A DNA stretch of 64,000 nucleotides from positions 1 through 64,000 of the forward strand of contig JASCPH010000005.1 in assembly GCA_029959545.1 (NCBI GenBank). Direction: 5' to 3'. The notes below the pieces were generated by a model. That model was not told the DNA's origin and made no database searches. It worked only from the letters and a program-made list of their open reading frames with translations. The stretch is from Microbacteriaceae bacterium PS02066 (GTDB lineage Bacteria; Actinomycetota; Actinomycetes; Actinomycetales; Microbacteriaceae). The first letter of the stretch is position 1. Each line of letters starts with the position of its first letter. Below, in pieces: positions 20,094-26,516 of this stretch. Made by a program: the position numbers and the translations under genes.

Positions 20094-21905
20094 TCACACG
20101 AGTGAGTCGCGCCAGGCGGCATGCAGCCGCGCGAACGTGCCGGAGCCGCCGATGAGCGCCTGGGGCGCGTCGTCCTCGACGATGCGGCCGTGCTCCATGA
20201 CGAGCACGCGGTCCGCGATCGCGACCGTGGAGAGGCGGTGCGCGATGATGATGGCGGTGCGATCTGCGAGGAGCGTCCCGAGAGCCGACTGGATCTGGCG
20301 TTCGCTCGGGATGTCGAGCGAGGCCGTCGCCTCGTCCAGAATCAGCACCGCCGGGTTCGCGAGGAACGCGCGTGCGAACGAGATCAGCTGACGCTGTCCC
20401 GCCGACACACGCCCGCCGCGCTTGTTCACGTCGGTGTCGTAGCCGTCGGGGAGCGCCTCGATGAACGCGTGCGCGCCGACGGCCATGGCCGCATCCCGCA
20501 CCTCGTCGAGGGTCGCATCGGGCTTGCCGAGCGCGATGTTGTCGGCGACGGTGCCGCTGAACAGGTACGCCTCCTGCGTGACCATCACGATCGCGCGGCG
20601 CAGGTCCGCCGAGCCGAGCGTCCGCAGATCCACACCGTCGAGCGTCACGGAGCCGCTTGTCGGGTCGTAGAAGCGGGAGACCAGCTTCGCCAACGTCGAC
20701 TTGCCCGCCCCCGTCGTGCCGACCAGGGCGATCGTCTGCCCCGCGGGTACGTCGAGCGAGAAGTCGGGCAGCACCACACGCCCGTCGCCGTAGCCGAACG
20801 CCACATCGTCGAAGCGGATCGCGCCGCGCGGCCGCGCCAGCGCCACCGGATGCGCGGGCTCGGGAACCGTGGGCTCCTCCTCCAGCACGCCCGACACCTT
20901 CTCGAGCGCCGCCGCGGCCGACTGGTAGGAGTTCAGGAACATCGCCACCTCCTGCAGCGGCGAGAAGAAGTTGCGCACGTACAGCACGGCCGCCAGCAGC
21001 ACACCGATCTCCAGCGCTCCGCCGGCGACGCGGATGCCACCCAGGAGCAGGATCGCGCCGAGACTGAGCGTCGAGATCGCCATCAGCCCGGGCTCGAACG
21101 TGCCGAACAGCCGGATGGAGCGCATGTTGACGTCGCGGTACTGCTCGCTCAGCTCGCCGAACTCCACGTCGCCGCGCTTCTCCTTGCGGAACGCCTTGAC
21201 CGCGCGGATGCCGGTCATGGTCTCCACGAAGTGCACGATGACTTTCGCGCTGATCACGCGCGACTCGCGATAGACCATCTGCGAGCGGCGGTAGAACCAC
21301 CGCATGAGCAGTGCGAGCGGGATGCCCATGACGATGAGCACGACGCCGCTCTGCCAGTCCAGCAGCAGCAGCGCGATGAGCGTGAAGGCACCGAACAGCA
21401 CCCCCGAGACGAGCTCGTTGAGCCCGCCGTCGAGCAGTTCCCGGATCGTGTCGAGGTCGCTCGTCTGGCGCGAGATGATCCGCCCAGACGTGTACGACTC
21501 GTGAAACTCCAGGCTGAGCCGCTGCGTGTGGCGGAAGATGCGGGTGCGAAGGTCGAGCATGACCGCCTGCGTGAGCCGCGCAGCGACGACGGCGTACCAC
21601 CCGATGAGAGCTGCTCCGAGCAGCCCGGACGCGAGATAGACGGCCACCACGCCGATCGTGGGCAGCCAGTCCATCTCGTTCAACACCGCCGGCAGCGCGT
21701 TGTCGATGCCGAACGCGATCAGCGCCGGTCCCACGACCCGCAGCGCCGTCGAGACCACGAGCACGACGGCCGCGAGCACGAGCTTCGCGCGCAGCGGGCG
21801 GATGAGGGAGCCGAGCAGGCGCATCGAGCGACGCCGGATCTCGCGGCTCTCCGCGCGCGTGTAGTCGGAGCGATCCTCGCCGCTGGTTCCCGTGACGGTA
21901 CTCAT
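20094..21905 (-). CDS. ABC exporter half-transporter B (canonical nucleotide site)
   Basis: A 603-residue protein with an N-terminal six-helix exporter domain and a C-terminal ATPase. Walker A is GTTGAGKST, the Q-loop MVTQEAYLF, the signature VSAGQRQ (one change from LSGGQ), Walker [11 protein letters not shown] with catalytic Glu, and the switch IIAHRLST. It pairs with the upstream protein (21902-23710), whose own site is degenerate, as in asymmetric heterodimeric exporters of the BmrCD/TM287-288 kind. The genes overlap by ATGA. The substrate is unknown; drug or peptide export is likely. Confidence 0.85.
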
Positions 21906-23710
21906 CGCACCTCCTCCTTCTCCTGCTCGTCCAGACTCGAGATCACGTGCCGGTAATGCGCCGAGGAGCGCATCAGCTCGCTGTGCGTGCCGACGGCGGT
22001 GACGCGACCCTCCTCCAGAAGCGCGACGCGATCCGCGAGGGCCACGGTCGAGGGCCGGTGGGCGACGATGAGGGCGGTCGTGTCCGCGAGCACCCGGCGC
22101 AGCCCCTCTTCCACGCGCGCTTCGGTGTCGACGTCGAGCGCCGACAGCGGGTCGTCGAGCACGAGCACAGATGGCCGCGCCGCGACCGCCCGCGCGAGCG
22201 CGAGACGCTGCCGCTGCCCTCCCGACAGGCTCAACCCCTCCTCGCCGATGACGGTGTCGACGCCGGCGGGCAGTCGTTCGACGAACTCCGCCTGGGCGAC
22301 GTCGAGGGCTTCACGCAACACGCGCTCGCCCTCCGGCGAGGCCGCATCCAGGTCGTCCCGACCGACCAGAACGTTCTCCCGCACGGACGAGGAGAAGAGT
22401 GTCGCCTCCTCGAACGCCATCGAGATGTGGGTGCGCAGTTCGTTCAGGGTGAGGTCCCTCACATCGACGCCGTCGAGCGTCACGCGTCCGCCGGTCACGT
22501 CGTACAGACGCGTCGGCAGGGTGGTGAGCGTGGTCTTGCCCGAGCCGGTGAGCCCGACGAGCGCCATCGTCTCCCCCGGCTCCAGGGCGAGCTCGATGCC
22601 GTCGAGCAGGTCGCGCTGCGCATCCGGCGCATCCTGGTATCGGAAGTGCACGTTCTCGAAGACGAGCCGCCCCCGCGGGCTCTCGAGCGAGACCGGCTTC
22701 TCCGGGTCGTCGATCGTGACCTGCTCGTCGAACACCTCGAACACGCGGTCGGTGGCGGTGCGCGCATCCAGGAGGAAGGAGAAGAGGAAGCCGATCGACT
22801 CCATGGGCCAGCGCAGCACCGTCGCCATCGCGAAGAACGCGAAGAGCTGAGCCACAGAGAGCTGGCCGAGCTGAGCGAGCACGATCCCGGCCGCCAGACA
22901 CAGCGCGAAGGCGATCTCGGGCAGCAGCACGAGCCAGAACCAGATCAGCCCGATGGCCGTGGCCTTTCGCAGCTCCGTCTGGCGCAGCGTCTCGGCCTGA
23001 CGCGCGAACTTCGCCAGCGCGTGGGATCCCCGACCGAACGCCTTCAGCACGCGGATGCCGTGCACGCTCTCCTCGACGGCGGTGGCGAGATCGCCGGCCT
23101 GGTCCTGGCTCTGGCGAGCGAGCACCCCGTACTGCTTCTCGAAGCGATATCCGGCGTACCAGAGAGGAGCGGAGCACAGCAGGAAGATCGTGCCGAGTGC
23201 CCAGTGCCACTGGAACAGCAGCACCGAGCCGAGCGCGATCGTCAGCACGTTGACGACGAGCAGGATCACGCCAAAGGCGAGCCAGCGGCGGATGAGGCTG
23301 ATGTCCTGCATCATGCGACTGAGCAGCTGACCCGACTGCCACCGGTCGTGGAAGGCGACCGGGAGCCGTTGCAGCCGCGCGGCGAAGCCGGTGCGCAGGG
23401 CGTACTCGACCTTGGTCGACGGCGCGAGCACGAACCACCGCCGACCCCAGACGAGGGCGGCTTCGGCGAGCCCGAGCCCGATGACGGCGAGCGTGCCCCA
23501 CAGGATCTGCGTCGGGTCCGCGGAGGCGATCGGACCTGCGACCACGGCCTCGAGCACGAGCGGGATCATCAGGGCGACGACGCTGGCAGCGAGCGCGCTG
23601 ACGGCGCCGAGGACCAGCGGACGCAGCACGGGGCGCACGAACGGCAGAAGCCTCGCGAGGGCGCGAAACGTGGACGGTTCGGTGGACGAACGAGAGGGTG
23701 TGGAACTCAT
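21902..23710 (-). CDS. ABC exporter half-transporter A (degenerate nucleotide site)
   Basis: A 602-residue exporter subunit with six transmembrane helices and an ATPase domain. Walker A (GLTGSGKTT) and the signature [10 protein letters not shown] are canonical. The Walker B glutamate is replaced by Asp ([11 protein letters not shown]), and the Q-loop glutamine is replaced ([10 protein letters not shown]). These changes mark the non-hydrolysing partner of a heterodimer with the next gene. Transcription starts upstream of a short leader ORF (23819-23884), so expression is probably controlled by translation of that peptide. Confidence 0.85.
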
Positions 23711-23818
23711 GATCCTCGAGGAGAGCGTGCGACGGCGAGGCCGCAGAAGGGTGAGCTCGCACGCAGAGGTGCGATGGCTGGGAGAGGCAGGGGGCCGCTC
23801 GGAGGCGGCAGGCGGCAG

Positions 23819-23884
23819 CTACGCGAAGCGCGCGGGCACCGCGAGGACGGCGGGGTGTTCCGCAATGGCGAATGCCTGAGTCAT
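23819..23884 (-). CDS. 21-codon leader ORF upstream of the ABC exporter
   Basis: It reads MTQAFAIAEHPAVLAVPARF then Ala and stop, with an excellent GAGGAGGA ribosome site six bases before its ATG. A 108-base leader separates its stop from the exporter ATG at 23710. In that stretch GCGTGCG can pair with CGCACGC just 5' of the exporter's ribosome site. It is too short to be a normal enzyme. The arrangement fits a regulatory peptide that senses ribosome stalling, as for many drug-inducible exporters. Confidence 0.6.
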   Translation of the reverse strand: MTQAFAIAEHPAVLAVPARFA

Positions 23885-24000
23885 ATCGTCCTCCTCGAGC
23901 GCACGGATGCCGCGGCGAGCGCTCGCGACAGCCCTCCAGCCTATGCTGTGTGTTCGCTGAGTTCAACGACCAATTCCACGCGGGCATTCCCGCGCGCGGA

Positions 24001-24492
24001 TCAGGCGGCTTCGCGGGCGAGCAGGCTGCGCTTGACCTCGATGCCCCACGCGAAGCCGCCCATCGCGCCGCCCGTGCGCAGCACGCGATGGCACGGCACG
24101 AACAGTGCCGGTGCGTTACGCGCGCAGACGGATGCGGCCGCGCGCACCGCCCGAGGGCTTCCCAGCGCCGCGGCGAACTCCGCATACGTGAGGGGCTGCC
24201 CCGGCTCGATGCGCCGCAGCATCCGCCAGCCGGCGAGCTGTCCCGCCGTGCCCGTCTGGTGCACCTCGACCGCGTCGATGGCCCGCACGTCTCCGCTGTA
24301 GTAGGCGGCGACCGCATCCAGGGCATCGACGGCACCCTCGACGATCTCGGTGGGCCGGTCCGCCGCGCGCAGGCGCGCGACGATCACCTCGTGGTCGTCG
24401 CTCCAGCCGGAGGCGAGCACACGCTGCCGATCGTCGACGAGCGCCGTGAAGGCTCCGTCGGGGGTGGTGATGGTGGCGATGTGCGCGGTCAT
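24001..24492 (-). CDS. ogt: Methylated-DNA-protein-cysteine methyltransferase
   Basis: A 163-residue O6-alkylguanine transferase that accepts the alkyl group on the Cys of its FVPCHRV motif. The helix-turn-helix ([21 protein letters not shown]) and the final segment [14 protein letters not shown] are typical. It is translationally coupled (ATGA) to the Ada/AlkA gene upstream, so the two direct-reversal and base-excision activities against alkylation are made together. Confidence 0.9.
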
Positions 24493-25994
24493 GCGATGCG
24501 GCTCTCGTTCGGGAGGCGGGTGGACTGGGGGATCTGCGCGGGCACGGCCGCGACGGCGGCCCAGAGGTGCGCGGTGAGGTAGCTGCGCCAGGGTGCGGCG
24601 CGGACAGACCAGGCGGTCAGGGCGCGGGGCTCCGCGGGGAGCCCGAGCCGGGCGGCGCCCGTGCGCACGGCGACGTCGCCGGGCAGGAACACGTCGGGAT
24701 CGCCCGTGACCCGCATCCGCACGTAGTCGGCGGTCCACGGGCCGATCCCGGGCATCGCGAGCAGGGCCGCACGCTGCTCGTGGGCATCGCCGCCGGCGTC
24801 GAGGATGAGTGAACCGTCGGCGAGCGCCGCGGCGGCGCCGACAATGGCGCGGATGCGGGCGGCGGGCCCGCGCAGCGCCTCCGCGCCGCGCTCGGCGATC
24901 GCCGCCATCGTCGGGAAGAGCAGGTCGGTGCCTTCGTGAGCGGGCACCCGCTCCCCCAGGTGCTGCGCGAGAGCGGCGAGGGCCGTGCGCGCGGCGGCAA
25001 CGGTGATCTGCTGGCCGACCATCGCGCGGATGAGCATCTCGTGCGGGTCGGCGGCGCCGGGGACGCGGATGCCGGGAAGAGCTCTCACCCGGGCGGCGAG
25101 CTCGGGGTGGACTGCGAGCGCCTGATCGACGGCGAGGGGGTCCGCATCCAGATCGAACAGTCGACGCACGCGCGTGACCAGCTGCGGCAGGTCGGCGAGC
25201 TGCGAGAGGCGGGCGCGGAGGCGCAGTGCGTCGCCGTCGCGGCGCAGCTCGAACCATGCGGAGCCGCCGGCCAGGCGCAGGGTGCGCGCGAAGGTGGTCG
25301 CCGTGAAGGACTCCACTCCCGGGAGCGCGCGGGCCGCCATCCACGCGAAGATGCCGCCGTCGTCGATGGGGCGCCGGTGCGCGAGGAGGAGGTCGATCTC
25401 GCCGGGAGCCGCACGGTTCTCGTTTCTCCGGCGCGCGCGCAGTGCGAGCGGCGTCATCCCGAACACCTCGCGGACGGTGTCGTTGAATTGCCGCACGCTC
25501 GCGAAACCGGCGGAGAAAGCGACGTCTGCAACGGGGAGCTCCGTGCCGACGAGGAGCATTCGCGCCGTGTGGGCACGGTGGGCGCGGGCGAGTGCGAGGG
25601 GCGACGCGCCGAGCTCGGCGGTGAGGATGCGGCCGAGCTGCCGGGTCGAGTAGCCGAGCCGGTGGGCGAGCCCCGGCACACCCTCGCGCTCGATGACGCC
25701 GTCGGCGATGAGTCGCATGGCGCGCCCGGCGACGTCGCCGCGAAGGTCCCATTCGGGCGACCCCGGCGCGGCCTCGGGCAGGCAGCGCTTGCAGGCGCGG
25801 TAGCCCGCCTCGTGGGCGGCGGCGCTCGTGGGGTAGAACGTGACGTTCTCCGGCCGCGGCGTGCGGGCGGGGCAGCTCGGACGACAGTAGATGCCGGTCG
25901 TGTGCACCGCGGTGACGAACTGACCGTCGAAGCGCGCGTCCCTGGCGTCGATCGCGCGGTAGCGCTCGTCGAAGGTCATCGCGGAGGTGGGCAC
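24489..25994 (-). CDS. alkA: Ada N-domain / AraC / AlkA glycosylase fusion
   Basis: A 501-residue fusion. Residues 1-85 are the Ada zinc domain ([13 protein letters not shown] and ACKRCLP Cys ligands; the first Cys accepts methyl from phosphotriesters). Then comes an AraC-type helix-turn-helix ([19 protein letters not shown] and [24 protein letters not shown]). The C-terminal half is an AlkA 3-methyladenine DNA glycosylase with the HhH-GPD motif [18 protein letters not shown]. It should sense methylation and excise alkylated bases. The GTG at 25994 lies six bases after CAGGCT; an ATG at 25979 is the alternative start. Confidence 0.9.
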
Positions 25995-26162
25995 GTCCCC
26001 AGCCTGTCACGCCTCCGCGACACCGGCTCGCGGTTTTCGGACACGGCAGCGCGGTGCCCCGCCGCGCCCGTTGCGTCGCGTTACCCCCTCCCCCGCTCCA
26101 ACGCCCCTTGCTGCCCGCTGCGCACTGCCCGCCGCCCGAGTGCCCGAGTTGCGGCGCGGTTG

Positions 26163-26216
26163 CGCAGATGCGACAGGTTTCCGCATCCGCGACAGATGCT
26201 CACTGTCGCATCTGCG
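26163..26216. repeat. Intergenic palindrome (GCAGATG type)
   Basis: Perfect 14-bp arms CGCAGATGCGACAG (26163-26176) and CTGTCGCATCTGCG (26203-26216). It lies in the roughly 520-bp gene-free stretch 25995-26516, which holds only this and the next palindrome plus the promoter of the gene at 26517. Confidence 0.75.
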
Positions 26217-26373
26217 TTAATGTGTAGCGGTTCCGGCAGGCCTGAACGGCGCACGTGGCAGATCGGGGCTCCCCGCGAGCCGCACAGGCACGGCCCGTCC
26301 GCGCAGCTGCGGATGCGGCGGGCCGCCGGACGCGGCGAGGGATCCAACTGCAGCGTCACGTGGTGCCACACTC

Positions 26374-26432
26374 TTGCGCAGATGCGCCAGTAATTTCCTG
26401 GCGCGCCTGCGCAAAAGTGGCGCATCTGCGCA
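26374..26432. repeat. Three-armed intergenic palindrome (GCAGATG type)
   Basis: The left arm TTGCGCAGATGCGCCAG (26374-26390) can pair with 26398-26414 (two mismatches) or perfectly over 15 bases with 26418-26432. Two alternative hairpins are therefore possible. It lies about 85 bases upstream of the flavoprotein gene at 26517. Confidence 0.65.
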
Positions 26433-26516
26433 TATGCGACGCAACTCGGGCACCCCACCCGGGCCGGGAACGCAAGCGGCGACCCCGGGGAGGATGTGAC
26501 GGAGTAGCGTCGCAGC

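Follow-up and report, generated by a model that had tools for sequence, protein, structure and literature searches.

The locus considered here lies on the minus strand of a 64 kb stretch of DNA, which we call the window and by which we always mean the whole of that stretch. It consists of a two-gene ABC exporter, of a short leader ORF that precedes it, and of a spacer that separates the two. The features of the locus are the following, going from the exporter to the putative promoter.

20094..21905, minus strand: ABC exporter half 2, 603 aa, which overlaps half 1 by 4 nt
21902..23710, minus strand: ABC exporter half 1, 602 aa, assigned from Pfam and from its structure relatives, with the motifs taken from the translation
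23711..23818, minus strand: spacer, C-rich and G-poor (49% C, 24% G), a possible Rho-loading region according to its composition
23819..23884, minus strand: leader ORF of 21 codons, MTQAFAIAEHPAVLAVPARFA, running from ATG to TAG, identified from its translation and its conservation
23890..23895, minus strand: leader ribosome site (RBS) AGGAGG, which matches the anti-SD consensus over 6 bases
23938..23966, minus strand: putative leader promoter, picked by eye, with TTGAAC (23961-23966), 17 nt, and TAGGCT (23938-23943)

The exporter and its surroundings

Each half of the exporter carries one ABC_membrane and one ABC_tran domain in Pfam. These are the only families that gave adequate scores, and no peptidase domain was found in either half by this search. 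The initial annotation described the exporter as asymmetric, and the translations bear this out. In half 1, the Walker B motif ends in Asp (VLVLDD) and the signature is LSGGQ, whereas in half 2 the Walker B motif carries the catalytic Glu (VLILDE) and the signature is degenerate (VSAGQ). These differences make the pair asymmetric, a heterodimer with one degenerate site. The solved structures related to the two halves include TM287/288, TmrAB-like chains and BmrD (YheH), the BmrD structures (YheH entries) being found among the relatives of half 2. At E<=1e-120, 359 of 366 Microbacterium genomes encode the exporter, and in the family (Microbacteriaceae) 214 of 249 genomes have it, so that it is core to both the genus and the family and is not an acquired resistance gene.

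The leader also corresponds to what had been annotated, namely a 21-codon frame with a ribosome site stronger than that of most genes, followed by a 108-base stretch that leads to the exporter. Indeed, 108 bases separate the leader stop from the exporter ATG (23710), and the SD match is shorter than the 6 bases of the leader in 28 of the 33 window genes, which are rough script calls that were each given the best start within their first 150 nt. The RBS of the exporter itself, GAGG at 23714..23717 on the minus strand, matches the anti-SD consensus over 4 bases only.

As for the putative promoter, TAGGCT and the GGAGGGCTGTCGCG that follows it recur in many relatives, and the TTGAAC of the window reads TTGCAC or TTGCGC in all 4 close relatives. 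A stricter sigma-70 scan did not report a promoter at 23938..23966. The 5' untranslated region would extend over 23885-23931; across the genus, GGAGGGCTGTCGCG is widespread after a -10-like hexamer, and by eye a complementary segment, with which it would form a 5' hairpin, is often seen ahead of the leader SD. This arrangement is seen in some leaderless loci too. CTGGAGGGCTGTCG has a single exact occurrence in its own genome, at the leader locus.

The gene that lies 5' of the leader (24001-24492, minus strand) encodes an ogt-type O6-alkylguanine methyltransferase, and the next one (24489-25994, minus strand) looks by eye like an Ada/AlkA-like fusion. Similar ogt ends, also recognized by eye, sit 5' of the leader in many relatives, and a purH-like gene takes the place of ogt in two loci without a leader (L078 and L079). 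Further upstream, the intergenic region 26150-26450 contains several GCGCAGATGCG-like copies together with inverted GCATCTGCG sequences.

A leader dedicated to the exporter

To describe the occurrence of the leader among relatives, 139 upstream regions were fetched in the genus, of which three (L055, L081 and L150) were dropped because their exporter start was unusable. A strict scan, which called for an SD with GGAGG in front of 15-34 codons and for 15-265 nt between the ORF and the exporter, found the leader in 118 of the 136 remaining Microbacterium exporter loci, a sample that takes in one exporter similarity listing and most of a second one and that leans toward window-like exporters. Three more leaders were added by eye (L135, L147 and L030), which brings the count to 121 of 136 and leaves 15 leaderless loci. 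A near-identical scan used for the controls (GGAGG SD, ATG ORF of 15-34 codons, gap of 15-265 nt) retained 115 of the 136 true regions, whereas 7 of their 136 reverse complements passed, and among 4080 dinucleotide shuffles 23 did. The leaders of the genus have a median of 25 codons, and the gap that follows them has a median of 134.5 nt (range 19-260).

The linkage to the exporter was addressed with a profile of 27 leader peptides from window-like groups, some of which come from genomes that were later searched. In 79 genomes of the genus, 25 matches reached E<=0.003 and all of them precede the exporter; ten weaker matches lie mostly elsewhere or were unchecked. As judged from these comparisons, the leader ORF is real, well conserved, and dedicated to the exporter. 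Outside of the genus, 36 loci from the rest of the family were scored, and 24 of them have a diverged leader, in other words a short ORF with an SD in the corresponding position; the 36 remain from 40 after removal of L179, L191 and L198, which had no match to the trimmed query, and of L197, which had no start. The peptides of these other genera no longer resemble that of the window, from which they differ at most positions. By the strict criterion, the leader is absent from 11 loci taken from other families of the order. At the other end of the scale, two genomes (G136 and G035) encode leader peptides that are 90% identical to that of the window. The bare 21-aa peptide is too weak a query for finding relatives: it matched in 21 of 198 genomes at E<=10, and at E<=1e-5 only its own genome, G136 and G035 were left. 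A protein family search gave no family match for the peptide, and no report of the leader was found in the open PMC literature among the matches listed.

Since a conserved leader with a strong RBS precedes the exporter and is dedicated to it, control of the exporter by the leader would be the natural reading of this arrangement.

A second promoter-like element is seen in the spacers of some relatives. The motif GGCATA-N15-(A/C/G)CGTT occurs in 52 of the 136 loci (for instance L031, L033, L049 and L098), none of them in the lineage of the window. When spacings of 8 to 24 were examined, the distance between GGCATA and CGTT was 14 in two loci and otherwise fixed at 15, and in 51 of the 52 loci, which include the leaderless L045 and L155, the motif lies about 85-165 nt before the exporter. 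We take it to resemble an ECF-type promoter, which would bypass the leader. As the mark of a sigma-factor regulon, it found no clear support: with one mismatch allowed, 5 genomes gave 69 sites, mostly GGCATC variants, and the reversed control gave 37. In L030 (genome G003), the region upstream of the exporter holds tandem CGCGAACCAATCCCAC copies and a run of N.

Spacer composition and a possible gating by Rho

C exceeds G in all 118 spacers of the leader loci, with a mean of 46% C and 25% G. Within the 64 kb, the C bias of the window spacer (+0.25) stands at the 99.86th percentile of 108-nt windows on both strands. In the window, 22 genes are preceded by an intergenic stretch of 100 nt or more, and the spacer is the most C-biased of these stretches (+0.24, for a mean of -0.006 and an sd of 0.093). 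Such an excess of C over G resembles Rho-loading sites, and Rho is encoded in the genome. The best 78 nt of the spacer have a C/G of 2.5, which is the 99.90th percentile for composition only, and there are 7 or more further peaks in the 64 kb, most of them overlapping genes, with a ratio as high; composition is a proxy only for Rho action.

The C bias is not confined to the spacer, as it starts inside the leader ORF and continues into the first codons of the exporter. In the leaders, C is used rather than G as the third codon base 1259 times out of 1817, where the window genes would predict 1008.5, a preference (C3) that is strongest for Val, Leu and Ser, reversed for Gly, and absent for Pro and Thr. 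Just before the exporter, the C bias amounts to 0.232 in 116 leader loci and to 0.077 in the 15 leaderless ones. This link between leader and C bias corresponds to 7 changes on the best tree, only 2 of which are forced by well-supported branches, and so it rests on few independent events; in the other genera of the family, the difference between 24 and 12 loci is not significant (p 0.06). In a sample of 59 loci, the spacers fold at -0.327 kcal/mol/nt as compared with -0.436 in coding RNA. Their folding is nevertheless slightly more stable than that of their shuffled versions (mean z -0.67), which means that they are not structure-free.

We propose, with a confidence that stops just short of even, that the 21-codon ORF may be a ribosome-gated attenuator of the core heterodimeric ABC exporter, acting most likely via Rho. 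The leader, its strong RBS, its dedication to the exporter, the C-over-G bias of spacer and codons, the lack of an intrinsic terminator and the Rho gene can all be read in the DNA; to these, the proposal would add cotranscription, translation of the leader, termination by Rho, and stalling with its trigger. The leader would be cotranscribed with the exporter pair, and the ribosome on the leader would decide whether the RNA polymerase gets to the exporter. When translation is fast and normal, the ribosome would exit at the leader stop and leave a naked C-rich, G-poor spacer open to Rho, which would then end transcription before the exporter or early in it. Slowed or stalled ribosomes on the leader would block the loading of Rho or the termination, so that the pump would be made.

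RNA structure and the exporter ribosome site

The initial annotation also pointed to a possible GCGTGCG/CGCACGC hairpin at the ribosome site of the exporter. The letters are there, as GCGTGCG (23758-23764) and CGCACGC (23725-23731) are both present in the spacer, but the rest of this claim does not stand. Of 1000 shuffles of the spacer, 233 contain a perfect 7-bp stem with a loop of 3-40, as do 208 of the 592 tiles of 108 nt cut from one strand of the window. Moreover, the stem ends 7 nt before the exporter GAGG, which it does not cover, and one of its pairs is broken (C-A) in 2 of the 4 close relatives. The hairpin was thus rejected as a control element, being at chance level and not conserved. 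More generally, the predicted fold of the 253-nt leader region is not more stable than that of its shuffles (z -0.31), and Rfam gave no match with E<=1 in 23600-24100.

Two pairings that involve the ribosome sites remain to be described, and their segments are the following.

23843..23849, minus strand: CGTCCTC in the leader ORF, complementary over 7 bp to GAGGACG of its own SD region in the predicted fold
23891..23899, minus strand: CTCGAGGAG over the leader RBS, 5' arm of a possible 9-bp long-range pairing, from complementarity
23715..23723, minus strand: CTCCTCGAG overlapping the exporter RBS, 3' arm of the same possible pairing, from complementarity

The CGTCCTC positions are identical in all five sequences of the window and its close relatives, so that covariation is absent; across the genus, the pairing of the SD with the ORF is somewhat stronger than with codon-shuffled ORFs (mean z -0.92).

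The long-range pairing would provide the window with a translational attenuation, in which the leader (CTCGAGGAG) pairs with the exporter RBS (CTCCTCGAG) until a held ribosome frees it, in the manner of ermC or toiL; a polarity due to Rho may or may not be added further downstream. Such a sequestration of the RBS is the main and a serious rival in the window's own lineage, although we regard it as rather unlikely. The 9-bp complementarity arises in 18 of 2000 shuffles and the pairing is possible in all 5 close sequences, two of which have a C to T change that leaves one G-U each; the weakness of the exporter's own SD speaks in the same direction. However, the palindrome CTCGAG is common to both ribosome sites and makes part of the 9-bp match trivial, and the whole leader, as seen above, folds no better than its shuffles. 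Over the genus, the real leaders show no advantage over shuffled ones in their pairing with the exporter RBS (mean z +0.37), which argues against a general role of this pairing.

A fast-evolving peptide with a reversed stop usage

Gating of Rho by the ribosome would involve the leader as a translated frame, and the initial annotation had named conservation of the peptide in related genomes as a check of its control function. The outcome is mixed: the ORF and a loose core of the peptide are kept across the genus, but the peptide diverges fast. In 56 independent pairs, 120 of the 347 codons with a single difference are synonymous, against 97.7 expected, while two control frames of the same pairs gave 95 against 97.8 expected and 126 against 110.5 expected. 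Strong conservation of the peptide was thus rejected, as the synonymous excess is mild and one of the control frames is also above expectation. The peptide seems to evolve fast under weak conservation and, with the ORF and the loose core being kept, it appears to matter more that the leader is translated than which exact sequence it has.

At a closer range, when the window is aligned with its 4 closest relatives, 5 of the 66 columns of the leader ORF are variable, as compared with 31 of 109 for the spacer (Fisher p 0.0009). Third positions vary in 1 of 22 cases in the leader vs 18 of 65 in the exporter (p 0.03), and these few changes suggest a constraint on the RNA besides the peptide. Indels that are multiples of three account for 13 of 32 in the ORF and 29 of 167 in the spacer in 41 close pairs, and for 27 of 94 and 69 of 324, respectively, in an earlier version with 56 pairs; this test, which relies on free alignment, is noisy.

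Some traits of the peptide do recur among the 114 distinct peptides of the genus, whose mean net charge is +2.2. Lys is found at residue 9 with a frequency of 0.41, and Arg is found near the C-terminus in 104 of the 114 alignment rows, with five codons used, a number to which the aligner may contribute. An alignment-free count gives an Arg in the last ten residues of 106 of the 114 peptides against 79.9 expected. R-x-R is in excess (39 of 114 peptides, 20.6 expected) and Pro-Pro is absent (0 of 114, where 15.6 are expected by permutation), both statistics ignoring relatedness. The macrolide-stall motif R/K-x-R/K is carried by 42 of the 114 peptides, against 31.2 expected, and is absent from the peptide of the window, as can be read directly. 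The initial annotation had seen in the layout a drug-sensing attenuation that would make the exporter an inducible resistance pump, for which neither the core status of the exporter nor this peptide speaks; a sensing of drugs, if it occurs in the window, would do without that motif.

The stop codons are the other trait. The leaders of the genus end with TAG in 75 cases, TAA in 18 and TGA in 25 (n=118), and those of the other genera of the family with TAG in 14, TAA in 3 and TGA in 7 (n=24). TAG and TAA thus terminate 93 of the 118 leaders but only 3 of the 33 window genes, of which 30 use TGA (p 2e-13, ignoring relatedness). The stop usage of the leaders is reversed toward RF1 codons with respect to the window genes. 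Taken with the absence of Pro-Pro, it is as if the stop, and an unaided translation up to it, mattered.

These traits bear on another explanation, in which the leader is translated without specific sensing and either damps or insulates the exporter or couples it to the general translation state, with no drug-specific stalling. The fast divergence of the peptide, which goes as far as differences at most positions in other genera while the ORF, the SD and the spacer persist, speaks for this explanation, and the core nature of the exporter and the leaderless state of 15 of the 136 loci fit with it as well. We nonetheless find it unlikely, given the near-constant C-terminal Arg with its five codons, the R-x-R excess and the lack of Pro-Pro, which together suggest a selection on the nascent chain.

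Weighing the possible mechanisms

In favor of a gating by Rho, we counted the occurrence of the leader and its dedication to the exporter, the spacer and C3 bias, the contrast with the leaderless loci, the lack of a terminator, the weak per-base folding of the spacers and the presence of the Rho gene, to which the TAG/TAA stops and the absence of Pro-Pro were added. Against it, we counted the other C/G peaks, the spacer z of -0.67, the few independent events, the p of 0.06, the weak conservation of the peptide and the C3 exceptions.

An attenuation by an intrinsic terminator and antiterminator, as for BmrBCD of Bacillus subtilis or the actinobacterial ilvB leaders, would be another way to connect translation of the leader to transcription of the exporter, and we hold it to be improbable. 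The kind of gene that is regulated and the layout of the ORF do match BmrCD as it is described in the excerpts of PMC4191407. Relatives also have small spacer hairpins: in 20 related spacers, which do not belong to the window's group, one precedes the exporter RBS, and changes on its two sides keep the pairing at 3 of the 13 predicted pairs, in at least one sequence each. The consensus structure of these 20 spacers is however weak (-11.6 kcal/mol over 13 pairs), and at least 5 T in 8 nt are found in only 26 of the 118 genus spacers, with or without a preceding hairpin. Intrinsic termination was rejected in the window, as no terminator-like site is found in 23600-24200.

It is very improbable that the short ORF encodes a functional small peptide, such as a substrate of the exporter (a secreted signal or a bacteriocin), rather than a cis regulator. 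The positive charge of the peptides and their strict linkage to the exporter would suit this role, but neither exporter half has a peptidase in Pfam, the peptide matches no family and its divergence is faster than a conserved product would show, and the C bias of the RNA would stay unexplained. Finally, a chance ORF, which would account for a short frame without a family match, is refuted by the shuffle and reverse-complement controls and its probability is negligible.

Gating by Rho, the mechanism that we favor, can be extended into a joint reading that we find possible but, taken as a whole, somewhat unlikely. Throughout the family, fast-evolving leader peptides would be dedicated to one core heterodimeric ABC exporter, and the passage of the ribosome would gate Rho termination in the C-rich spacer. 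Termination at RF1-type stops (TAG/TAA) would be part of the sensor, and the peptide would act as a general sensor of translation stress without a fixed sequence. This would constitute a Rho-gated, uORF-controlled exporter of the multidrug type in Actinobacteria, some lineages having in their spacer a promoter-like element that bypasses the leader.

Known leaders and significance for the family

One comparable system is TnaC, the leader of the tryptophanase operon of Escherichia coli, which has about two dozen residues. Rho acts in the spacer that follows it, and the outcome depends on the ribosome at the stop codon of the leader. The leaders described here are of about the same length and precede a spacer that is a candidate for Rho from its composition only. 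They differ from TnaC in signal, in peptide sequence and in the genes regulated, and they mostly end with TAG or TAA, whereas the stop codon of TnaC is TGA.

Actinobacteria possess another uORF, that of whiB7/wblC, whose mechanism involves a terminator. According to the excerpts of PMC12121999 and PMC13236596, it senses several ribosome drugs and controls intrinsic resistance. The exporter leader is likewise an actinobacterial uORF; unlike it, the uORF of whiB7/wblC controls a transcription factor in these excerpts.

The BmrB leader of the bmrBCD operon of Bacillus subtilis has an intrinsic terminator inside its coding region and responds to 50S drugs, as the excerpts of PMC4191407 have it. 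The two systems are alike in that a short ORF lies directly 5' of a two-gene heterodimeric ABC exporter, with a ribosome-mediated layout. As far as these excerpts go, they differ in that no terminator was found here and that a C-rich spacer follows the ORF (PMC4191407). In Escherichia coli, the excerpts of PMC12121999 describe the toiL uORF of topAI-yjhQ as responding to several ribosome drugs, with a stalled ribosome that relieves repression and a Rho-dependent termination if the downstream gene is untranslated. The possible pairing of the leader with the exporter RBS would bring the window close to this system; toiL, however, pairs over its whole length with the RBS that lies downstream and controls a toxin-antitoxin in the same excerpts, while such a pairing is not general in the genus here.

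If the gating proposed here is true, translation of a tiny peptide is the means by which an entire bacterial family controls a core pump, and the naturally leaderless loci (15 of 136) offer a ready comparison. It would also show what such sensors keep when the peptide changes, namely the ORF, the strong RBS, the C-rich track and the stop codon, and it would amount to an intrinsic, translation-coupled control of efflux in environmental Actinobacteria.
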